From assembly GCA_021372825.1 (NCBI GenBank), contig JAJFTR010000095.1, positions 1 to 59,856 on the forward strand: 59,856 nucleotides of DNA, in the 5' to 3' direction. Source of the stretch: Actinomycetes bacterium. Lineage in GTDB: Bacteria > Actinomycetota > Coriobacteriia > Anaerosomatales > Anaerosomataceae. Positions 8,393 to 37,032 of the stretch are shown piece by piece. Under the pieces are notes generated by a model. The model was not told the DNA's origin and did not search any database. It saw only the letters and a program-made list of their open reading frames with translations. Position numbers and translations under genes: made by a program. Within the stretch, counting starts at the first letter, position 1; each line of letters starts with the position of its first letter.

Positions 8393-9445
8393 CTACCTCC
8401 ACAGAGCGCTGACGAAGTAGACCGCAAAGCCCGCGCCCGCCATGATCCCTGTCACGATCCAGAAGCGCACCATCACCTTGGTCTCGCTCCACCCCTTCAT
8501 CTCGAAATGATGATGGATAGGCGCCATGCGGAAGATGCGCTTACCGGTGAGTTTGAAGGAGACGACCTGCAGGACCACGGAGAGCGTCTCAACGAGGTAG
8601 ATCCCGCCGATCAAGATCAAGAGCAGTTCAGTCTTGGTGACGATCGCCATGCTCGCAAGTGCGGCGCCCAGGCCGAGAGATCCCGTGTCGCCCATGAAGA
8701 TGTCCGCAGGGTAGCTGTTGTACCACAGGAAGCCGACACATGCGCCCGCGATGCTCGCCGCCAGCAGCGACACCTCCAAGGAATCCTGCCTGAAGGCGAT
8801 CGCCATGTACGCGAGCATCACGATCATCACCGTGCCTGCCGCCAAACCGTCAAGCCCGTCGGTGAGATTGACCGCGTTGCTCTCGCCCACCACCATGAAC
8901 CATACCAACGCCACGTACATCCACGGGATGACGATCTCGAACGAGCCGATCCTGACGGTCGACGACAGGATCCCGAGATCGAGCGAGCCCACGAAGGGCA
9001 CGGCCACGTGCGTGTCCAGGTGCGCCCAGTTCACCGCCGCGAGCGCGACGAAGATCGCTACCGCCGCCTGACCCGCGATCTTCGCCCGAGGCTTGAGACC
9101 CAAGGACCGCTCGTGGACGACCTTCGCGTAATCGTCGATGAACCCTAGCATGCCGCAGGCGACCATCGCGATGAGCGGTATCAGGCCGAGACGACCCACG
9201 ACGCCCATCGCCAGATACACGCCACCCGCAACAAGAAGGATCAGGACTCCGCCCATGGTCGGCGTGCCTTGCTTGACGAGATGCCCCTGCGGCCCATCCG
9301 CGCGCACCTGCTGACCGATGTTGCGGTACTTGAGAATGCGGATCCACAGAGGAAAGAGCACGGCAGCCAGGACCAGGGCAACTACAGCTGCCAGGAACAC
9401 CTGGTAGGTGGGGTATCGCGCTATCTCAGGTATAAAGCTAAACAT
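8393..9445 (-). CDS. mraY: Phospho-N-acetylmuramoyl-pentapeptide transferase MraY
   Basis: Integral membrane enzyme that transfers phospho-MurNAc-pentapeptide to undecaprenyl phosphate, giving lipid I. The 350-residue protein has about ten membrane segments and the full set of catalytic motifs: FIDDYAK (Asp104, Asp105), NAVNLTDGLDGLAAG, FMGDTGS, and the MraY-specific HHHFEMKGW. The start overlaps the murF stop by eight bases. A second, diverged member of the same superfamily is encoded at 28125-29150. Confidence 0.98.
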   Translation of the reverse strand: MFSFIPEIARYPTYQVFLAAVVALVLAAVLFPLWIRILKYRNIGQQVRADGPQGHLVKQGTPTMGGVLILLVAGGVYLAMGVVGRLGLIPLIAMVACGMLGFIDDYAKVVHERSLGLKPRAKIAGQAAVAIFVALAAVNWAHLDTHVAVPFVGSLDLGILSSTVRIGSFEIVIPWMYVALVWFMVVGESNAVNLTDGLDGLAAGTVMIVMLAYMAIAFRQDSLEVSLLAASIAGACVGFLWYNSYPADIFMGDTGSLGLGAALASMAIVTKTELLLILIGGIYLVETLSVVLQVVSFKLTGKRIFRMAPIHHHFEMKGWSETKVMVRFWIVTGIMAGAGFAVYFVSALWR

Positions 9446-26502: not shown

Positions 26503-28116
26503 CTAGGCGCGCGACTTCTTGTAGGCGACCGCCGCACCCACGAAGTCGCGGAACAAGGGCGCAGGACGCGTGGGCCGGCTCTTGAACTCAGGGTGTCCCT
26601 GGCTTCCCACGAACCATGGGTGGCCGGGCAGCTCCACCATCTCCACGAGCTTGCCATCCGGCGAAACCCCGCTGATCACCATTCCCGCATCGGTGAGCCG
26701 CTGCCGATAGGCGTTGTTGACCTCGTAGCGGTGGCGGTGACGCTCGTAGATGACCTCTTGTCCGTACGCCTCAGATGCCTTCGTCCCCGGCTGCACCTTA
26801 CAGGGGTAGGCGCCGAGTCGCATCGTGCCCCCCATGTCGCTCACATCTTGCTGCTCGCGCATGAGGTCGATCACGGGGTGCTCGGTCACCGGGTCGAACT
26901 CACTGGAGTTCGCGCCTTCCAGGCCGACGACGTTGCGGGCGAACTCCGCAACCGCGACTTGCATCCCCAGACAGATGCCCAGATACGGCACCTTGTTCTC
27001 ACGCGCGAAACGCGCTGCGCTGATCTTGCCTTCGATGCCTCGGATACCGAACCCGCCGGGCACCAGGATCCCGTCGAACGACGTGAGCTCTTGCTCGACC
27101 TCCTCGGGAGTGAGGCTTTCGGCGTCCACCCAATGCACGTTGACCTTGTGATCGTGGTGGATACCCGCATGTTGGAGCGCTTCGGTGACCGAGAGGTACG
27201 CGTCGGGAAGCTGCACGTACTTCCCCACGAGCGCGATATCCACCTCATCGACGATCTGCTTGCGGTGCTCCACGAACGCGGCCCACTCGGCCAGGTCCAC
27301 GTCCCCGCACTCAAGCTCGAGCCGGTCGAGGACCATCTTGTCGAGCCCCTGCTCGTGCAGGGTGAGGGGCACCTCGTAGATGCTCGGCGCGTCCACTGCC
27401 GAGATGACCGCGTGGGCGTCGACGTCGCAGAAGAGCGCGATCTTTCGCCGGATGCCCACATCGATCGGACGGTCCGACCGGCACACGATGAAATCAGGCA
27501 GGATACCGATGCTGCGCAGCTCTTGCACGGAGTGCTGGGTCGGCTTGGTCTTGAGCTCTCCTGATGCGGCGATGTAGGGCACGAGCGTGACATGGATGTA
27601 GCACACGTTCTCTCGGCCGCGGTCCTTGCGAAGCTGACGGATCGCCTCAAGGAAGGGCAGCGATTCGATGTCGCCCACCGTCCCGCCGACCTCCGTGATG
27701 ATCACATCGGGTTGGGTCTGCTCGGCAAGACGGACGATGCGGTCCTTGATCTCGTTGGTCACGTGTGGGATGACCTGGACCGTTCTGCCGAGAAAGTCCC
27801 CACGGCGTTCCTTGGCGATAAGCGCCTGATACACGGACCCCGCCGTCACGTTGCAGTCGCGCGACAGCGACTCGTCGATGAAGCGCTCGTAGTGCCCCAG
27901 GTCGAGGTCGGTCTCACCGCCATCGTCGGTCACGAAGACCTCGCCATGTTGGAAGGGACTCATCGTGCCGGGATCGACGTTGAGGTAGGGGTCGAGCTTC
28001 TGGATCGTCACCTTGAGTCCTCGCGACTTGAGCAGCCGTCCGAGAGATGCAGCAGTGATCCCCTTGCCGAGCGATGAGACCACGCCGCCTGTGACGAAGA
28101 TGTGCTTTGTCGCCAT
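26503..28116 (-). CDS. pyrG: CTP synthase
   Basis: Glutamine-dependent enzyme that aminates UTP to CTP. The synthase domain starts with [19 protein letters not shown], whose P loop is near residues 11-20, and includes the metal and nucleotide region [14 protein letters not shown]. The class I glutaminase domain has nucleophile Cys382 in GICLGMQ and His508/Glu510 in GHPEF. At 537 residues it is full length. In Mycobacterium the same gene lies close to the tlyA-nadK-recN-SteA-SteB block; here about 5 kb of envelope genes separates them. Confidence 0.98.
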
Positions 28117-28124
28117 ACCTTGGA

Positions 28125-29150
28125 TCAGGCCTCCCTCGAGTCGTGGTCGTCGGGTCCATCATACCGCGTGTCGTCCGCCTCTGGCGGTGGCTCGGGCACC
28201 TCGTGCTCTCGTCTTCGGCCGATCGAGTCAAGCCACGCAAGAACCGGCGTACGCTCGATGACCGCCGAGAACGAGAGCCTTTCGGAGAGGAGGTTGAGGA
28301 CGAGCATCACGACTGCATAGGCGACGAGTCCGCTCGTGGGGAGCCCGCTTGCGATGGTCACGCCGACGGCAGCGCCCATGGCGTTGGCGCCCGCGTCTCC
28401 GAGCATCCCTTCTTCTCCTAGGTCGTACCGCCACACCGCGAAGACGGGGCCAAGAAGCATGAGAGCGAAGACCGTCAGCTCAGTGATAGAGCCACGGGCC
28501 ACGGCCAGCTCCCCCGTGTACGGCCCCAGCCCGAAGACGACCGAGACGACGCCGACGCAGGCGAGCACGCAGTAGGTCTTAAGAGCGCGCCCCGGACGAA
28601 GGTCCATGAGGTTCACGAAGTTCGACGTGAGAGCGACGGCAGCTGCCGCCAGGAGCACGAGCGCTACGTCGCGCAGACCCCATGGTCTCACGTGACGGCT
28701 CCAGGGCGCGGCGACCGCCAGCAGCGCCGCGACGCCGATGCTGGCCGCGCTGATTCCCACGAGCTTGAGCCCACCGGTGGTGAGGCGCCCCGTCATGATC
28801 GCGCGCACATGACCGCGAAAACCTCTTACCTCTCTCGTGCCAAGAGCGTCGTCCACCAACCCGAAGCTGAAGCCGGCAAGAGCCACAAGACCTGCAAGAG
28901 CAAGCACGAGCGTCGCCCTCAGTCCCGGGAAGACCACGGGGAGCACGATCCCTGCGACCATCGCGCCCCCCGCCCAGACGAGCCACACGACGCCGAGTCC
29001 CAAGAAGACGTCACGGCCGCGGTAGTTCTTCATCCGGGCATGTGCTGTATCACGGAGCACCGGTAAGAGCATGCGCATGGCGCCCCACGGGACGAGGACC
29101 CCCACGACAAGCGCCGAGGTGATCGCGAGCAGCGAGTCCAGAAGACTCAC
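28125..29150 (-). CDS. MraY/WecA-like glycosyl-1-phosphate transferase (GT4), diverged
   Basis: An integral membrane protein of 341 residues with about ten helices. It keeps landmark sequences of the polyprenyl-phosphate HexNAc-1-phosphate transferase superfamily: GLVDDALG (Asp100, Asp101), NFVNLMD (177-183) and GDAGAN (251-256), which matches the GDTGS site of MraY. The usual DGLDGLA sequence is replaced by DLRPGRA, and the MraY HHH motif is absent. It probably handles a lipid-linked sugar phosphate, but the substrate is unknown, and loss of activity cannot be ruled out. A charged, Pro/Glu-rich tail ends the protein. It overlaps the next gene upstream by four bases. Confidence 0.78.
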
Positions 29151-30865
29151 CGAGCCACCTCCCTCTCATCGGCGTCAGGCGCGAGCATGAGCATGACGAG
29201 AGCGCCTGCAAGGTAGAGCAGCATGAGTCCGAGTATCGCGACCCCGGAGTCCTCGACCACCATGCCGACCGTTCCACCCACAAGCCCCGCGATGACCGCG
29301 CCATGAAAGGTGGGGTAACGCTTGAAGACAGCTGCCATCCGGCCACGCGGATGAGCCACCATGTACACGAAACCGATGACCACCAGGCACGCGATCGCCG
29401 TGATGGGGGTCTCCGTGAAGATCCGCAAGCTCGTCTCAGCGCGACGCACCACTACATCGAGCATGCCGCTCGGGCCGCTGTCGAGCGCGCGGGTGACATG
29501 GGTCGCTCCGGGCATGAGGCGATCGACCATCACGACCACCCCGAGCGAGATCACCACGGCGCCGGCCGCCAGGAACACGTCGCTGAATCTCACTCTCCTG
29601 TGCCGAGACGCCACCGCAAGGGCCACGAAAGTCACGGGAGCCCACACCGCCACGACCGAGTTCGCACCGAGGAACGGCAGCGCCGCCACACAGACCGCCA
29701 CTACGCCGGTCAAGACGATCACGCGGTCGGACGTGCGCCTATCGGCCCGAACCGCATCGAGTTCGAGGGCGACTCCTGTGAGCAGAGCGCCCACGAGTAC
29801 GGCGGCGCCCTCATTGCCCAGCCCATAGAACCGGAAGCCCGCCACAGGCGAGTAGGAGAACAGACTCGACGTGGAAAGAGGCGCACCGAGCACCTGGTCG
29901 ACGACGAGCGTCGCCGCCGTCGCCAACGCTGCGAGCGCAATACCCGCGCCGGTCCCGAACCGGTGCCATGCGAGCTGCGAGAACAGCCAGACAAGACCGC
30001 TTGCGGCGAGCAAGAGTGCGACGATCCGCGCACCGGTGGCAGGATAGCGCTCCACTGCGAAGAGCAGCGTCCCTCCCGCTGGTACGCACAGGCCGAACAG
30101 CAGCGCCCGTCGTGTGACTGTCGACCAGTACAGGTAGCGCGTCCTCGAGCGTCCGCGCTCCGCAAGCAGCCAACCCACGACCACCAGGACCACCATCGCG
30201 ACGGTGAATGCGCTCTGCAAAGGGATCCGCGTGCGCTCCATCGCCACGAGGAAGGACTCCATCTCGGCCACACGCTCGATGCGCTCGGCCGCGCCAAGAC
30301 CCCCACGGTCGACCGAGCAGACGGCATCGCTATCCGCACTGTCTCGCCGTCCCGCGACGTTCATGATCGTCTCGGCCACGTCATGGTCGGTGACGATCCC
30401 CACCCGTCGGGTGCTCGAGCTCAGCAGGAGCCCATTGTCGTAACCACCACCGCGCAACACGACAAGGCCGGGACGGTCCGACGTGGGGACCGACACCAAC
30501 GCCACCATGGCATGCGGCGGCGTGCTCTGGACGACCTCCGCGATGCGCGTGTCCGCGACGCGACCGCTTTCCGGAACGACCACGGTGTGGATGTCGCGGC
30601 CGTAAGGAGCACTCGCGTAGACGCTCAGCGTCGCAGTGGTCTCCTCCGGCACATGCGTCACCACCAGGCCGAGCGCCCCTTCCTCGGCAAGCTCGCGCGC
30701 GGCCGGCATCATACCCGATGCGATATCGGACGACCTCAGACCAGAACAGACGATCACCGTGACATCAGTGCGAGCAGAGGCCGGAGACGCGGGTAGCTCG
30801 GCGCACCCGGCGAGTCCGGCCGACACGATCAGCGCCATGAGTGCCGCCGCGATCCGTGCCCGCAT
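29147..30865 (-). CDS. Lipobox-bearing polytopic membrane protein, function unknown
   Basis: A 572-residue protein that starts with a lipoprotein signal (LAGC, modified Cys21). An extracytoplasmic domain of about 180 residues follows, with TDVTVIVCSGLRSSDIA and repeated loops resembling the core of alkaline-phosphatase-like hydrolases (weak resemblance, not proven). From about residue 220 there are some ten membrane helices, including the motif SPVAGFRFYGLGNEGAAVL. I have a general recollection of similar GLGNE or GIGNE motifs in membrane proteins of Gram-positive bacteria but can name no family. The ATG at 30865 has GGAG upstream; the frame is open to 31456 but that part underlies murJ. It overlaps the GT4 gene by four bases and is divergent from murJ. 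Confidence 0.75.
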   Translation of the reverse strand: MRARIAAALMALIVSAGLAGCAELPASPASARTDVTVIVCSGLRSSDIASGMMPAARELAEEGALGLVVTHVPEETTATLSVYASAPYGRDIHTVVVPESGRVADTRIAEVVQSTPPHAMVALVSVPTSDRPGLVVLRGGGYDNGLLLSSSTRRVGIVTDHDVAETIMNVAGRRDSADSDAVCSVDRGGLGAAERIERVAEMESFLVAMERTRIPLQSAFTVAMVVLVVVGWLLAERGRSRTRYLYWSTVTRRALLFGLCVPAGGTLLFAVERYPATGARIVALLLAASGLVWLFSQLAWHRFGTGAGIALAALATAATLVVDQVLGAPLSTSSLFSYSPVAGFRFYGLGNEGAAVLVGALLTGVALELDAVRADRRTSDRVIVLTGVVAVCVAALPFLGANSVVAVWAPVTFVALAVASRHRRVRFSDVFLAAGAVVISLGVVVMVDRLMPGATHVTRALDSGPSGMLDVVVRRAETSLRIFTETPITAIACLVVIGFVYMVAHPRGRMAAVFKRYPTFHGAVIAGLVGGTVGMVVEDSGVAILGLMLLYLAGALVMLMLAPDADEREVAR

Positions 30866-31055
30866 GCGCTCTTCTCTCCTCACGGCTGATGAAACGTACG
30901 TCAAGCCGGCTCTCGGCTCGCGGAGTCGCACCTGATGGCTCGTCATGAGACGGCGTCCGGCACCCGCCCGCAAGTATACCGGAACGTTGCGTGCGAACCA
31001 CGGGACAGCACCGGGTCGCGTCGCTCCGTTACAATCAGCAAGGAATCCCACGGCC
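30866..31055. promoter_or_regulatory. Divergent promoter region between the membrane protein gene and murJ
   Basis: About 190 bases without a gene. On the minus strand TATACT (30973-30978) is a good -10 candidate for the membrane protein gene, with no clear -35. On the plus strand TACAAT (31030-31035) is a good -10 candidate for murJ, 26 bases before its Shine-Dalgarno sequence, again with a poor -35. No operator repeat stands out. Confidence 0.4.
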
Positions 31056-31070
31056 GAGGAGTAAGCCATC
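31056..31070 (+). promoter_or_regulatory. Strong ribosome site facing an ATC codon at the 5' end of murJ
   Basis: GAGGAG (31056-31061) is followed after six bases by ATC (31068-31070) in frame with murJ. An in-frame TAA at 31062-31064 excludes any start further upstream. The next usual start is ATG 31104, which has no ribosome site. Translation from ATC would give MAEKQSIARSTA before the later Met-Met, a plausible MurJ N terminus. Confidence 0.55.
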
Positions 31071-31103
31071 GCCGAGAAGCAATCCATCGCCCGCTCGACG
31101 GCC

Positions 31104-32663
31104 ATGATGTCGGTCTCGACGGCTGTCTCAAGGATATCCGGGTTCGTCAGGACGTGGGCCATGGCGTACGCCCTCGGACTCACGGCTATCGCCGACTCGT
31201 ACGACATCGCCAACAACCTTCCGAACATGATCTTCGAACTTCTGGCCGGCGGAGTCCTGTCATCGGTCTTCATCCCTCTGTTCATGGAGAAGCTCCAGTC
31301 AGAAGGCGACCAGAAAGCCGCACGCTTTGCGAGCTCGGTGCTCACGCTGATCATCGCGGTGCTGGGCGTTGTCGCCCTTGCTGGTACGATCTGGCCGGAA
31401 CCGTTCGTTCGAACCCAGACGCTCACCGTGAGCCCCGAAAAAGCGGCGCTCGCCACGCACCTGTTCCGCTTCTTCGCGGTGCAGATCGTCTTCTATGGCG
31501 CCGGCCTCGTGTTCACCGGCGTGCTCAATTCGTATCGGAAGTTCCTTGCGCCCGCTGTGGCGCCCATCTTCAACAACATCGTGGTCATCGTGGCGATCCT
31601 GGGATTCTACGTACCTTTTCGCGACACACGGCCGGACTTGGCGATCGCGGGCCTCGCAGTGGGTACCACACTCGGCGTGCTCGCGATGGCGCTCGTGCAG
31701 GTGCCGAGCCTCATTAAGCTCGGATTCCGCTATACGGCTCGAGTCGACTGGCACGACCCGGCTCTGGCGAAGGTCGCTGCCAAGATGGGGCCCACTCTCG
31801 TTTACGTTGTAACGAACCTTGTCACCGTCTCGGCCAGAACCAACTTCGCTGTCGCTACGGGCGAAGGAGGCCAGGCCGCCCTGAGGTATGCGTGGCAGTT
31901 CTACCAGCTGCCGTACGGGATCTTCGCCGTCGCGCTCGCCACCGCGATCTTCCCTGAGCTTGCCGAACGTGCCAACGCGCACGACATGGCAGGCTTCAAG
32001 GCGATCTTCTCTCGCGGTCTTCGAGCGACGATAGTCCTCATCGTGCCTCTCGCGACGATGCTCGGGGTCCTCGCACGCCCCATCATCACGCTCTACCGCG
32101 CCGGTCGCTTCACGGCCGAAGACGTGCCTGTGGTCGCTGGCGTACTCACCTGGTGGGCGGCAGGGCTCTTCTTCTTCGCTGCTTACATGTTCGTCCTCAA
32201 GACCTTCTACTCCCTGCAGGACACGCGCACACCCATGTTCACGAACATCTTCGCCTCCGCGATCCAGGTGGCGCTCTATGCCATCCTCACCACCGGCGCT
32301 TGGGGTGTGACTCCGCTCGGAATCACCGGTATCCCAATCGCCGATGGCATCTTCTATGGACTGCACCTCACCGCTCTCACGCTTCTGCTACGCCGGCGTA
32401 TCGGCGGGTTCGATTTGCGTGGCATCACCGGCACGTTCGCGCGCGTCCTCGCCGCCTCGGCCATCGGTGGAGCAGCCGCATACGGCGTGCTTCGACTCAC
32501 CGCTTCGCTCGGCTCAGGTGCAGGCTTCATCGTGCAGCTCCTCCTTGCCGGTGCTGCAGGACTCGGCATCACATACGGTGTCGCAGCGGCTCTGGGCGTG
32601 CCTGAGATCCGGGCGGGAGCTCGGCGCGTGCGCTCGGTCGTCCTGCGCCGCAAGGAGTCGTGA
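31104..32663 (+). CDS. murJ: Lipid II flippase MurJ (MviN family)
   Basis: Polytopic MOP-superfamily transporter that moves lipid II across the membrane. The sequence has about 14 helices, an N-terminal SVSTAVSRISGFVRTWAMA that matches the start of MurJ proteins, ANNLPNMIFELLAGG in the first lobe, the conserved YGIFAVALATAIFPELA, and VLKTFYSLQDTRTP. From ATG 31104 the protein is 519 residues. Twelve more family-like residues precede it, and the only strong ribosome site points to an ATC codon at 31068, so the true start may be there. The gene starts a plus-strand pair with the GT2 gene. MurJ is not part of the dcw cluster here. Confidence 0.94.
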   Translation: MMSVSTAVSRISGFVRTWAMAYALGLTAIADSYDIANNLPNMIFELLAGGVLSSVFIPLFMEKLQSEGDQKAARFASSVLTLIIAVLGVVALAGTIWPEPFVRTQTLTVSPEKAALATHLFRFFAVQIVFYGAGLVFTGVLNSYRKFLAPAVAPIFNNIVVIVAILGFYVPFRDTRPDLAIAGLAVGTTLGVLAMALVQVPSLIKLGFRYTARVDWHDPALAKVAAKMGPTLVYVVTNLVTVSARTNFAVATGEGGQAALRYAWQFYQLPYGIFAVALATAIFPELAERANAHDMAGFKAIFSRGLRATIVLIVPLATMLGVLARPIITLYRAGRFTAEDVPVVAGVLTWWAAGLFFFAAYMFVLKTFYSLQDTRTPMFTNIFASAIQVALYAILTTGAWGVTPLGITGIPIADGIFYGLHLTALTLLLRRRIGGFDLRGITGTFARVLAASAIGGAAAYGVLRLTASLGSGAGFIVQLLLAGAAGLGITYGVAAALGVPEIRAGARRVRSVVLRRKES

Positions 32664-33340
32664 TGCCGAGCGTCATCGCACTCGTGCCCGCACACAACGA
32701 AGAGGAGCGCATCGCCGACACCGTGCGTGCGATCACAAACCTCCCGCAGGTGACACGCGTGCTCGTCGTCGATGACGGCTCGACGGATGCTACCGCGGCG
32801 ATCGCCCGTGACGCGGGCGCCGAGGTCGTACGTCTTAAGCGCAACGTCGGCAAGGGAGGAGCTCTCAACGCCGGCTTCGAGGCGATACGCCACTCCGCCG
32901 ACATCGTGCTGCTGCTCGACGCCGACCTGGGCGAGAGCGCACGCGAAGCACGCGCGCTCCTCGCACCTGTTCTCACCGGTGAGGCCGACATGTCCGTCGG
33001 CATCCTTGCCCGACCCGCCGGCTCCGGCGGCTTCGGCCTGGTGAAAGGGCTTGCCCGAGCGGGTATCCGCAGGCTCGGCGGGTTCGATGCCGCGGCTCCG
33101 CTCTCGGGCCAGCGTGCCCTTGATCGCGCCGCGCTGCGCGCCGCGACTCCCTTCGCCCCGGGCTTCGGAGTAGAGGTGGCCATGACGGTACGTGTCCTTC
33201 AGGCGGGGCTGCGCCTCGTGGAGGTCCCGGTCGCGATGACGCACGCTGCCACCGGCAAGACGATGTCGGGCTTCGTACACCGGGGACGGCAGTTCTTCGA
33301 CGTCGCTCGTGTGCTGATGGCGCTTGTCGCTAAGCGCTAG
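32663..33340 (+). CDS. Family 2 glycosyltransferase (DPM1-like)
   Basis: A soluble or peripheral GT-A enzyme of 225 residues. It has VPAHNEE (8-14), DDGSTD (37-42) and the metal-binding DADLGE (86-91), then the pattern of polyprenyl-phosphate mannose/glucose synthases with GFGVEVAMT. There is no C-terminal membrane domain. The ATG at 32663 overlaps the murJ stop in TGATG and has AAGGAG five bases upstream; a GTG three bases earlier is too close. It probably transfers a sugar to a lipid carrier, perhaps for wall polymer decoration, but donor and acceptor are unknown. Its stop overlaps the steB stop on the other strand in CTAG. Confidence 0.85.
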   Translation: MPSVIALVPAHNEEERIADTVRAITNLPQVTRVLVVDDGSTDATAAIARDAGAEVVRLKRNVGKGGALNAGFEAIRHSADIVLLLDADLGESAREARALLAPVLTGEADMSVGILARPAGSGGFGLVKGLARAGIRRLGGFDAAAPLSGQRALDRAALRAATPFAPGFGVEVAMTVRVLQAGLRLVEVPVAMTHAATGKTMSGFVHRGRQFFDVARVLMALVAKR

Positions 33341-34203
33341 GACCTCGCAGGCTTGGCTTCGAGTGGCGGGTACGCGCCATCGGAGCCCGTGCCCAGGCCG
33401 TAGTACCCCGTCGCCCGCCCCGACAACACCCAGACCAGCGAAAACGCCCCCGCTGGAGTATCGACATGATCCACAGCCGAGAACCCCGCGTCAACGGCCT
33501 CAGCAGCCACACCCGTGGCCTGGTTGGTCGCCTCGACGCCTGTGACCACGACACCCGACCCGTCAAAGGCCTTCGCGATCGCCATGGCGGCGCTGTCAGG
33601 CTCTCCTGAGAACGACGCCATCACCACGCAGGCGTCCACCGTCGCGGTGGCTGTCGCCCCATCGACGCTCAGCTCACCGTCGTCGACCAACAGATCGGTC
33701 ACGGGACGTTCTCCTTGCCTGAGCCACTCACCTGCCATGCGCGAGGCTACCGCCTCGAGAATCGCATCGGGGGTTCCGCCGACGTCTTGTCCGAGCATGC
33801 CTGAAAGACCCTCTGGCGTTGCGATATCGAGTCCCAGCATGGGCTTCTCGAACGTGAAGACCACAGGCGTTCCGCCTGCCTGCTCGATAGACGTCGTGAC
33901 CGCTTCAAGACCACTGCTGCGTCCAGAGTTGACGAGAACGCCCACGGTCTTTCCGCGAAGGGCCTCTGCGGTGAGCACAGGCACCGCCTCTTGCGCGAAT
34001 GCACGGTCGTGCTGTAGCTGCTCGCGAAGCGCCCGGTTCTCTTGCTGCATAGCATCGAACTGCTTCTGCAGGTCCTGCACTATGATCGACGTCTGGTCGC
34101 CGATGGTGCCGCGCTCAGCTACGACACTCCCTAGCACCAGTCCGATCGTGAGCGCGAGGAAGACCGCCACCAAAGACGCGATGTGATACCTGAGGTTGTA
34201 CAT
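33337..34203 (-). CDS. steB: SteB / MctB family membrane protein (DUF3186)
   Basis: A 288-residue protein with an N-terminal membrane helix (NLRYHIASLVAVFLALTIGL region) that is highly typical of the family, then a coiled coil (about 40-70) and an alpha/beta extracytoplasmic domain. The family was first described as copper transport protein MctB in Mycobacterium; in Corynebacterium the homologue SteB works with SteA in the cell-separation pathway that controls a peptidoglycan hydrolase. Here it follows steA after 22 bases, with GGGAG six bases before the ATG, so the cell-separation role is the likelier one. Confidence 0.88.
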   Translation of the reverse strand: MYNLRYHIASLVAVFLALTIGLVLGSVVAERGTIGDQTSIIVQDLQKQFDAMQQENRALREQLQHDRAFAQEAVPVLTAEALRGKTVGVLVNSGRSSGLEAVTTSIEQAGGTPVVFTFEKPMLGLDIATPEGLSGMLGQDVGGTPDAILEAVASRMAGEWLRQGERPVTDLLVDDGELSVDGATATATVDACVVMASFSGEPDSAAMAIAKAFDGSGVVVTGVEATNQATGVAAEAVDAGFSAVDHVDTPAGAFSLVWVLSGRATGYYGLGTGSDGAYPPLEAKPARS

Positions 34204-34225
34204 GAAAGACTCCCTGCTCGTGGCC

Positions 34226-35347
34226 TCAGATGCCGATGGTAGCCCTCACGCGGAGCACCACCAGCCAGACGAGTGAGCGCATGCCTGGCGAGATGAGGAT
34301 CGCCGTGGTGATCACGGTGAGCGCAGCGACGACCAGAACCATCAAATGGGTCGGCTTTACCGAGGCGCGATACAGCTTGTTCACACCTTTCGCGTCCACG
34401 AGTTTCGGACCCACCTTGAGGCGGACCAAGAACGTCGATGCCGCACCCTTGCGACCCTTGTCAAGGTTCTCGATCAGGTTAGCGTGAGTGCCGACAGCGA
34501 CGATGAGCTCCGCGCCCGATTCGTACGCGAGCAGAAGCGCGAGGTCTTCGCTCGTTCCCGGCATCGCCCACCGGACTCCTTGGAGTCCGAGCGTGGTCAG
34601 GCGTGCCTCGCCAGGGGCACGACCGTCAGGATACGCATGGACGATCAGCTCTGCGCCGCTTCGAAGGGCCTCGTCGGAAACAGAATCCATGTCACCGACG
34701 ATGATGTCGGCGGAAAGGCCGAACTCCCTGAGCGCGTCAGCGCCCCCGTCCACCCCGATCAAGACCGGTTTGACCTCACGGATGTACGGAAGCAGCGCCC
34801 TCAGGTCCTCCTTGTAGTCGTATCCGCGCACCACCACGAGCGCGTGGCGACCCGCTATCGGCGTCCGGGTGATAGGCGCGGTGATCCCCTCGGTGAGAAG
34901 CGCTTTCTCGTGAGCGATGTACTCCAGCGTGTTCCGTGCGAAGCTCTCGAGCTGCTGGTCCAGACCTTCTTTGGCAGCCTCCATGGCCGCTTCCACCTGG
35001 TCGACCGTCAGACGATGTCCCGAGGCCACGACCACGCCGTCCTTGACGATGTCGTCGTCGATGACCTCTATCTCATCGCCTTCCTTGACACGTTCGAAGA
35101 CCTCCGGCCCCACATCATCGATGAGACGCACTCCCCCTCTAGCGAGGAGCAGCGGCCCGAGGTTGGGATACGTGCCTGAGATGGAACGCGCAGCGTTGAC
35201 GACGACTTCCACCCCGGTCTCCAGAAGCGACTCGGCGCTCACCCTGTCCATGTCGACGTGGTCGATGATCGCGATGTCGTTTCTGCCGAGGCGCTTCACC
35301 AGGTCCTTGGTGCGCCTATCAAGCTTCGCTATGCCTCGAAAACGCAT
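34226..35347 (-). CDS. steA: Putative cytokinetic ring protein SteA
   Basis: A 373-residue protein with a large cytoplasmic part and one C-terminal membrane helix (about 335-352). The first 160 residues form the conserved SteA region. Residues 190-320 resemble the thiamine pyrophosphokinase catalytic domain and keep GVDGGAD (198-204) and GDMDS (218-222), the metal and nucleotide site of that family. Whether it binds a nucleotide is not known. SteA localises to the division site in Corynebacterium and acts with SteB. The ATG has GAGG five bases upstream. It follows recN after 23 bases. Confidence 0.9.
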   Translation of the reverse strand: MRFRGIAKLDRRTKDLVKRLGRNDIAIIDHVDMDRVSAESLLETGVEVVVNAARSISGTYPNLGPLLLARGGVRLIDDVGPEVFERVKEGDEIEVIDDDIVKDGVVVASGHRLTVDQVEAAMEAAKEGLDQQLESFARNTLEYIAHEKALLTEGITAPITRTPIAGRHALVVVRGYDYKEDLRALLPYIREVKPVLIGVDGGADALREFGLSADIIVGDMDSVSDEALRSGAELIVHAYPDGRAPGEARLTTLGLQGVRWAMPGTSEDLALLLAYESGAELIVAVGTHANLIENLDKGRKGAASTFLVRLKVGPKLVDAKGVNKLYRASVKPTHLMVLVVAALTVITTAILISPGMRSLVWLVVLRVRATIGI

Positions 35348-35370: not shown

Positions 35371-37032
35371 TCAGTCTAGCAGAGGGACATCCGCCGCCGC
35401 CCGTGCGCGGACCGAGGCGAGCAGCTCGCGGGCATGCTCGATACCCGCCGAAGACGTCCCGCCCGACAGCATGCGCGCGATCTCGACGACGCGTTGCTCG
35501 CCCTCCACCGGAGTCGCGACCGTCACGCTGCGACCATCACTCTTCGCCCTGGAGACCACCACCTGATGGCCGGCATACGCAGCGACCTGCGCGAGATGGG
35601 TCACCACCAGCACCTGATGGGTGCGCGCAAGCGAGGCGAGCCTCGCACCGACCGCACGGGCCGTCGCACCACCGATGCCCGCGTCCACTTCGTCGAACAC
35701 GAGTATGGGGGTCTTATCGGCGCCTCCCAGCACGTCTTTGAGAGCGAGCATCACACGGGATATCTCGCCGCCCGAAGCGATCTTTGCAAGAGCCCGAGGC
35801 GTCTCCTGCGCGCTCGAGCTGAACAAGAACTCGACCTTCTCAGGCCCCTCGAGCGTCCACGCGTCGAAAGGCAAACTCCTGCGCACGACATCGAAGCGGG
35901 CTTCCGGGAGTGCAAGGTCCTCAGCAGCTTGTGCAAGTGCCGACGCGAATGCGGACGCTGCCTGATCGCGTATCGCGCTCAGCCGGGCCGCAGCGTCACG
36001 CAGCTCAGCTTCTGCGTCTAAGACAGCCGCCCGAGCGCTCGCCAGCCCCTCCTCACCCATGCCGAGGGTCTCGAGCTCTTGCGCCGCGCTCGCGCGAGCT
36101 GCCAGAACGTCGTCCAAAGCCGGACCGTACTTGCGCCGCAGGGTCTCGATCGCAGCAAGACGCCCTTCGACCGTATCGAGTGTGCTCGGGTCATCCTCCA
36201 GCTGCTCGGCATACTCCCGAAGGCGAGCGCCAAGGTCGTCGATCTGAGCCGACAGACCCTCGAGCTCGACCGTCATGTCGTCCAGCGCACCATCAAGACC
36301 CGCAGCTGTGCGCAGAGCCGCGATGGCGCGTGCGATGCTGTCAGACGCCGCCTCATCGCCTCTCAAGGCCATCCACGCGCCCGCTGCCGCCTTCGTAAGA
36401 CGGTCTGCGTTCCTCAGCCGAGGAAGGAGCGCCTCGAGTCGGGCGTCCTCTCCGGGAGCCGGAGCGACCGCATCGATATCGGAGACCTGGAAGCGCAGAT
36501 AGTCGATCCGGCGTTCCTTGTCGGAGAGGGATGCCTCCAGAGACGCCAGCGCCCCGCGTGCCTCACGCAGGGCTTGGAACGCCGACCGGTACTGCTCCTT
36601 GGCCGCTGCGGCCACCTCTCCGATGTAGCGGTCGAGGTATCCCGCATGGTTGGAGACAGCCAGAAGAGCCTGGTGTTCGTGCTGCCCGTGAAGGTCGACG
36701 ACATCCGAGAGGAGCGCGCTCAGAGAGGACACCGTCGCCATCTCCCCGTTCACGCTGCACCGGGACCGGCCATCAGCACCCACGCGCCGGCGCACGAGAT
36801 ACTCGGCCCCATCGATGAGGAACCTGCCCTCAACGAGCGCTTCTTGTGCCCCCTCGCGGACGAGCGAGGTGTCAGCGCGGTCTCCCATGAGCAGCTTGAG
36901 CGCCCCCACAAGCACCGTCTTGCCCGCACCTGTCTCTCCCGTGAGAGCGGTCAGCCCATCACCGAACTCCAACCACACCTCTTCGACGAGGGCCAGGTCT
37001 TTGACGTGGAGTTCAGCGAGCATGCCGTTCAC
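35371..37032 (-). CDS. recN: DNA repair protein RecN
   Basis: SMC-like ATPase that acts in double-strand break repair. The 553-residue protein has Walker A GETGAGKT (32-39), a long central coiled coil with an N-terminal and a C-terminal helix (about 155-360), the signature ASGGEISRVMLALK and Walker B DEVDAGIGG. The start could be the GTG at 37032, which overlaps the nadK stop in GTGA, or the ATG at 37023, which gives the standard MLAELHVKDLALV; neither has a good ribosome site, so coupling to nadK translation is probable. Confidence 0.96.
   Translation of the reverse strand: MNGMLAELHVKDLALVEEVWLEFGDGLTALTGETGAGKTVLVGALKLLMGDRADTSLVREGAQEALVEGRFLIDGAEYLVRRRVGADGRSRCSVNGEMATVSSLSALLSDVVDLHGQHEHQALLAVSNHAGYLDRYIGEVAAAAKEQYRSAFQALREARGALASLEASLSDKERRIDYLRFQVSDIDAVAPAPGEDARLEALLPRLRNADRLTKAAAGAWMALRGDEAASDSIARAIAALRTAAGLDGALDDMTVELEGLSAQIDDLGARLREYAEQLEDDPSTLDTVEGRLAAIETLRRKYGPALDDVLAARASAAQELETLGMGEEGLASARAAVLDAEAELRDAAARLSAIRDQAASAFASALAQAAEDLALPEARFDVVRRSLPFDAWTLEGPEKVEFLFSSSAQETPRALAKIASGGEISRVMLALKDVLGGADKTPILVFDEVDAGIGGATARAVGARLASLARTHQVLVVTHLAQVAAYAGHQVVVSRAKSDGRSVTVATPVEGEQRVVEIARMLSGGTSSAGIEHARELLASVRARAAADVPLLD

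Follow-up and report, generated by a model that had tools for sequence, protein, structure and literature searches.

The window analyzed here (59,856 nucleotides, the whole stretch of DNA taken from contig JAJFTR010000095.1 of the Anaerosomataceae assembly GCA_021372825.1, class Coriobacteriia) carries steA and its partner steB. The interval between steB and pyrG holds four further genes: a GT2 glycosyltransferase gene and murJ on the plus strand, and genes for an AlkP-like polytopic protein (Poly) and an MraY-like enzyme (MraYL) on the minus strand. The best explanation of the block as a whole, in which we have moderate confidence, is that it represents an ancestral SteAB-linked lipid-glycan module and that murJ within it is read from an AUC, AUA, or AUU (AUH) start codon and so is predicted to be under the control of translation initiation factor 3 (IF3).

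With SteA as the query, 80 named loci were retrieved together with flanks of at most 10 kb per side, several of them cut by contig ends, and neighbors were assigned by iterated profiles; many of the genomes are metagenome-assembled genomes. SteB was found in 75 of these loci, MraYL in 71, GT2 in 70, Poly in 28, and MurJ in 26, and steB adjoins steA in 75. A SteA-SteB-GT-MraYL core was seen in Coriobacteriia, other Actinomycetota, and Clostridia (two phyla). This block is ancient and ancestral, and its origin as an insertion in Coriobacteriia was rejected. Coriobacteriia loci have the same gene order as the window. In Aquicultor-type and certain other basal Actinomycetota, a single strand carries steA-steB-GT2-(further glycosyltransferases)-Poly-MraYL-pyrG; the additional genes are GT4-type and, in locus L060, include one for a PMT_2-type enzyme. 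Jiangella, Phytomonospora, and Streptosporangiaceae have steA-steB-MraYL-murJ, and the two genomes read from family f20 have a single run recN-steA-steB-murJ-GT4-Poly-MraYL-pyrG. Clostridial loci read steA-steB-GT2-MraYL; pyrG was not seen in the retrieved flanks, and other genes follow recN. Clostridial SteAB has been located downstream of spo0A (PMC12977500). A literature search on SteAB in synteny with MraY returned nothing relevant.

The association extends to whole genomes. Among 149 Actinomycetota genomes, 64 encode both SteA and MraYL, 6 SteA only, 2 MraYL only, and 77 neither (Fisher's P of ~2e-32, computed without correction for shared ancestry), and all 59 of the SteA-MraYL pairs found on the same contig lie within 16 kb. 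This test covers Actinomycetota, and the co-occurrence in Bacillota comes from the named loci. Both MraYL-only genomes gave weaker matches and belong to a single genus (g69). Two of the six SteA-only genomes are 85 to 87% complete; the other four belong to family f42 and have the mycobacterial order. The first-pass annotation had used that order, tlyA-nadK-recN-steA-steB-pyrG, as its frame of comparison. The order is correct (three of the four f42 genomes; SteB went unrecognized in the fourth, G110), but it represents a reduced state, and the block in the window is the fuller one. SteAB has been studied in mycobacteria as a stand-alone wall-hydrolase switch, and the wider phylogeny suggests that it arose with, or long lived with, a lipid-linked glycan pathway.

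In a hand count of genomes at least 90% complete in the window's order, SteA, MraYL, and Poly are all present in 41 and all absent from 6, and 1 more has SteA alone, at a contig end. The locus was read in six SteA-less genomes, where it is dxs-tlyA-nadK-recN-[murJ]-pyrG: steA, steB, Poly, and MraYL are gone, whereas murJ, which lies on the opposite strand, has stayed where it was. Five of the six also lack GT2 at the locus; the other (G040) keeps it beside murJ. Several separate losses of the block are likely, because the six genomes span four families, two of which (f5 and f15) have other genera that retain it. These natural joint losses are ready comparisons, and because steA, steB, Poly, and MraYL were lost together and in place, we argue that they form one functional unit. 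The opposing account is neutral conservation of gene order, in which the genes are neighbors by descent near recN and pyrG, which are essential housekeeping genes, and share no function. It draws on the fact that tlyA, nadK, recN, and pyrG are themselves conserved neighbors in the same steA loci, and on mycobacteria-like genomes, which keep SteAB and lack MraYL and the other glycan genes at this locus. Unlike gene-order drift, however, the losses removed four genes jointly around an untouched murJ; the clostridial SteA-SteB-GT2-MraYL core persists though separated from recN and with no pyrG seen beside it; and the co-occurrence holds across whole genomes. We strongly disfavor neutral order and regard it as quite improbable. 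Genes scattered with no steA-steB co-occurrence were the pattern that the first-pass annotation had named as the mark of a chance block; the check for it was run, and what emerged was adjacency in two phyla, near-perfect genome-level co-occurrence, and joint in-place loss.

SteA (34226..35347, minus strand) is a TPK-like cytoplasmic protein with a membrane C-terminus that scores 486.9 bits against NF040608 (cutoff, 150) and matches the solved SteA structure 9hmy (E = 3.6e-73). SteB (33337..34203, minus strand; MctB family, PF11382, E = 1.9e-34) is its single-pass, extracytoplasmic partner, and a search of solved structures with SteB gave no match. Across the 81 sequences aligned, the TPK-like nucleotide motif of SteA (GVDGGAD...GDMDS) shows practically no variation. 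All MraYL-carrying genomes read have it intact (GDFDS in one of them), as do the two incomplete SteA-only genomes, and the window's SteA has it in full. The four f42 genomes, which lack MraYL, have a degraded motif, and so does the solved MtSteA (GVGTGAD...GDPDQ). This contrast, a single lineage event, is suggestive, though no proof, of a link between SteA and the pathway. CgSteA is stabilized by GDP or UDP (PMC12977500), and the ligand class that we propose for SteA, a UDP- or GDP-sugar or its product, would give a reason for the SteA pocket. Second SteA matches were seen in two genomes: a truncated tandem copy in G045 (G045:C22:60790-62701) and, in G024, which is incomplete and possibly a mixed bin, a pair of full-length copies (C56 and C75).

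The block resembles the SteAB-RipA system of Corynebacterium and Mycobacterium (PMC6705760, PMC12977500) in its adjacent SteA and SteB orthologues, its tlyA-nadK-recN frame, and the presence of RipA-layout hydrolases in the genome, but in the window the pair is accompanied by MraYL, GT2, and Poly, all three missing from this locus in mycobacteria-like genomes. Three RipA/PcsB-like coiled-coil NlpC/P60 proteins (L242, L243, and L244) have the layout of the SteB target in Mycobacterium tuberculosis (Mtb) and by analogy are candidate SteB targets; the PcsB coiled coil was over the Pfam cutoff in one of the two NlpC/P60 proteins scanned and just under it in the other. These comparisons bear on two alternative readings of the SteAB link. 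In the first, SteAB-controlled hydrolases need a wall polymer or anchor glycan, produced by the module, as their substrate or landmark; the link is structural, and SteA does not sense the pathway. The parts do resemble a lipid-linked oligosaccharide pathway, and SteAB is known from Mtb to bind and position a hydrolase (PMC12977500), but retention of the SteA motif alongside MraYL, and its degradation in a lineage that lost MraYL, point to a cytoplasmic link too; we consider this reading possible, if doubtful. In the second, SteA and SteB outside mycobacteria regulate the glycan pathway itself (e.g., MraYL activity), and only later was the pair put to use in controlling a hydrolase. Adjacency and co-occurrence link SteAB tightly to MraYL, and SteA has the full TPK-like motif, both in favor of this second reading, but SteB keeps the MctB family layout and the genome encodes proteins with the layout of the known target, and regulation of the pathway itself seems unlikely to us.

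MraYL (28125..29150, minus strand) is, judged by its motifs and predicted model, a PNPT-fold enzyme, namely, a putative polyprenyl-phosphate transferase of the MraY/DPAGT1 fold with a DLRPGRA signature. The window copy matched nothing in Pfam (none at an E value of 0.1) or NCBIfam, and PF00953 is matched by 35 of the 65 family members (matches for which gathering scores were not read). An Asp pair and the key residues of NxxNLxD and GDAGSN are invariant in the 65 sequences, the family profile matched MraY among PDB sequences (E = 3e-8), and the predicted model (pLDDT of 91.2) matched MraY and DPAGT1 in Foldseek with a probability of 1.00 (E = 4e-5). MraYL thus shares with MraY, WecA, and DPAGT1 (PF00953) the fold and the DD, NxxNLxD, and GD(A/V)GS motifs but differs in having DLRPGRAxK for DGLDGLA and, in the window copy, no Pfam match. 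The genome's canonical mraY is distinct from MraYL and sits elsewhere in the window (~8546..9412, a profile-matched span, minus strand), with a weak match of 30 bits to the MraYL profile. The GT2 protein (32663..33340, plus strand; PF00535) has GpgS, ArnC, and DPM synthase as its nearest solved structures. It has the GT2 core and the DDGS and DxD motifs of GpgS and of the polyprenyl-phosphate sugar synthases AglJ, ArnC, and DPM1, but at 226 amino acids it has no membrane part and falls far under the cutoff of each NCBIfam model that it matched.

That the block makes and flips a lipid-linked glycan used at the septum had been raised as a possibility in the first-pass annotation, and this interpretation is partly supported. 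The parts fit the making of such a glycan (a PNPT-fold enzyme with catalytic motifs, a GT2 or GT4 enzyme, and a PMT_2-type enzyme in some relatives), whereas flipping by a module-specific MurJ is supported in other lineages, namely, family f20 and some Actinomycetes. The two f20 genomes (L216 and L217; G141 and G061) have a second murJ in the block and another strong MurJ match elsewhere in the genome. The window's MurJ scores 329.4 bits against TIGR01695 (cutoff, 235.55), and since most genomes of its order have a single strong MurJ match, murJ there is probably the housekeeping flippase. Its membership in the module was rejected for this order, where it stays in place when steA, steB, Poly, and MraYL are lost.

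Poly (29147..30865, minus strand) carries a lipobox signal, a shortened AlkP-like outer domain, and ~10 membrane helices. The earlier description of it as a polytopic protein with a lipobox held, as the LAGC lipobox is kept in the nearest relatives (L033 to L037), but the gene start moved from the mechanical open reading frame start at 31456 to ~30865. In the window's genus group the outer domain has lost ~200 residues and carries the lipobox; relatives are ~770 residues long. The window's Poly had no match in Pfam or NCBIfam, and the Poly profile gave only nonsignificant matches to PDB sequences. A model of a full-length relative, L040 (pLDDT of 88.8), has an AlkP-fold outer domain followed by ~10 helices; Foldseek matched it to YejM/PbgA, LtaP, and sulfatases, and its VIA alignment to iPGM (Z score of 22.3, 250 residues aligned, 3.1 Å) covers mainly the AlkP domain, the part that is shortened in the window copy. 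Poly is like YejM/PbgA and LtaP in combining an AlkP-superfamily fold outside with membrane helices but differs in its reversed order (outer domain N-terminal, ~10 helices C-terminal), its lack of conserved outer-domain His, and its shortening in the genus group. No His column reached 50% in the outer domains of 21 full-length members, the pattern looked for as metal-binding ligands, and because the domain has no conserved His, Poly is probably not a working phosphatase-type enzyme.

The module probably makes a lipid-linked glycan of its own, one coupled to the control that SteAB exerts over a wall hydrolase. In the mechanism that we propose, whose chemistry and substrates, Poly role, direction of signaling, and septal role we infer, MraYL would transfer a sugar-1-phosphate from a UDP-sugar to undecaprenyl phosphate, and GT2 (GT4 in relatives) would extend the lipid-linked product. 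A module-owned MurJ would flip this product where present, with the housekeeping MurJ or a different flippase taking that role elsewhere. On the outside, Poly, with an AlkP-fold domain seemingly without metal ligands and its ~10 helices, might sense, ligate, or polymerize the product. SteA would bind a pathway-linked nucleotide and, via SteB, position a coiled-coil NlpC/P60 hydrolase, and wall cutting at separation would thereby be matched to the glycan. A bolder version, which we offer tentatively and hold to be rather speculative, is that SteA is a nucleotide(-sugar) sensor that allows separation only with an MraYL/GT2-made, Poly-handled glycan, that in mycobacteria the glycan branch disappeared while the hydrolase switch survived, and that murJ is held by IF3 via its AUC/AUA start, tying wall-precursor export to translation initiation.

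Several observations weigh against a SteAB-linked glycan module. Mycobacterial SteAB works without the glycan genes, so there is no strict dependence, and the loss of the SteA motif is a single lineage event. Membership is uneven: Poly is in only 28 of the 80 loci and was not found in the clostridial ones, GT2 is absent from Actinomycete loci with MraYL, GT2 of G040 was retained after the other module genes were lost, and murJ persists after module loss in the window's order and hence is no part of the module there. The HHH loop of MraY was not found in MraYL, whose C-terminal part has no invariant His in the 65 sequences. Septal use of the glycan is extrapolated from what SteAB is known to do in Corynebacterium and Mycobacterium (PMC6705760, PMC12977500).

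The second part of our explanation concerns the murJ start codon. We corrected the start of murJ (31068..32663, plus strand) to ATC 31068, which precedes the first ATG (31104). The start region (31056..31070, plus strand) comprises a Shine-Dalgarno (SD) sequence, GAGGAG, six bases before the ATC, an in-frame TAA two codons upstream of it, and a spacer. No ATG, GTG, or TTG lies between the TAA and ATG 31104, which has no SD before it (SD sequences were scored with a simple motif score). In 56 copies from the order, the codon called at this position is ATC in 43, ATA in 8, ATT in 1, CTG in 2, GTG in 1, GTA in 1, and ATG in none; an AUH start behind an SD is thus present in 52 of the 56. The SD is sharp at positions -11 to -7, the codons after the start (P-S-I/V-A-R-S-T-A) vary mostly at third positions, and columns upstream of the SD are near random. 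In a comparison over 18 named loci from Coriobacteriia, the only SD-bearing start of murJ was an AUH codon (18/18), and the 11 neighboring gene families have a canonical start with an SD or no clear call; by a crude rule, AUH-only starts occurred in that comparison in PyrG (4/17), GT2 (2/18), and RecN (1/18). Sampling of 28 murJ genes from other orders gave no clear conserved AUH start, several starts not being callable. The SteA-less genomes keep the AUH start, which is therefore a property of murJ itself rather than of the module.

Translation of murJ from the in-frame ATG 31104, with the ATC merely part of the leader, is the alternative to AUH initiation. That ATG is conserved in all 56 copies, but it has no SD of at least 4 bases before it in any copy, the SD belongs to the AUH codon, and the interval between the two codons encodes a conserved peptide that changes mostly at third positions. 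Moreover, the TIGR01695 alignment begins upstream of ATG 31104, murJ of G021 has a GTG at about the same place as the AUH codon, and infC has the same AUH-SD arrangement in the same genomes. We regard initiation at ATG 31104 as highly improbable.

As is known for infC, this gene starts at AUH in all 28 cases read from the same genomes. In this genome infC (L172; G000:C66:6029-6532) has an ATC start preceded by GGAGGTGGAACGCCT, as is usual for IF3 autocontrol, and codons 2 and 3 (AGC ACG) are similar to those in many murJ copies. In murJ, as in infC (ATT/ATC) and Streptomyces sigR (GTC; PMC5472188), a strong SD precedes a rare start codon, and this arrangement is conserved over many species; murJ differs in encoding a lipid II flippase. 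On the precedent of infC and sigR, we predict that murJ in the order, translated from AUC, AUA, or AUU, would be repressed by IF3 as infC is. We found no report of murJ with a noncanonical start in open-access papers. A conserved AUC/AUA start, if true, would add murJ to the very few genes for which IF3 control is expected.

Every gene was found where the first-pass annotation had placed it. The block is bounded by pyrG (26503..28116, minus strand; PF06418) and recN (35371..37032, minus strand). Within it, steB and GT2 are convergent with touching ends, the GT2 start overlaps the murJ stop (TGATG), and Poly and MraYL overlap by four bases. In two basal Actinomycetota loci (L060:8864-9745 and L056:9201-9992), a protein with a subthreshold M23 peptidase match lies between recN and steA, possibly another wall-cutting enzyme beside SteAB. 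Sugar-dehydrogenase-like, AP_endonuc_2 TIM-barrel, and rhomboid proteins are encoded between steB and MraYL in one uncultured genome (L067:11034-16664).

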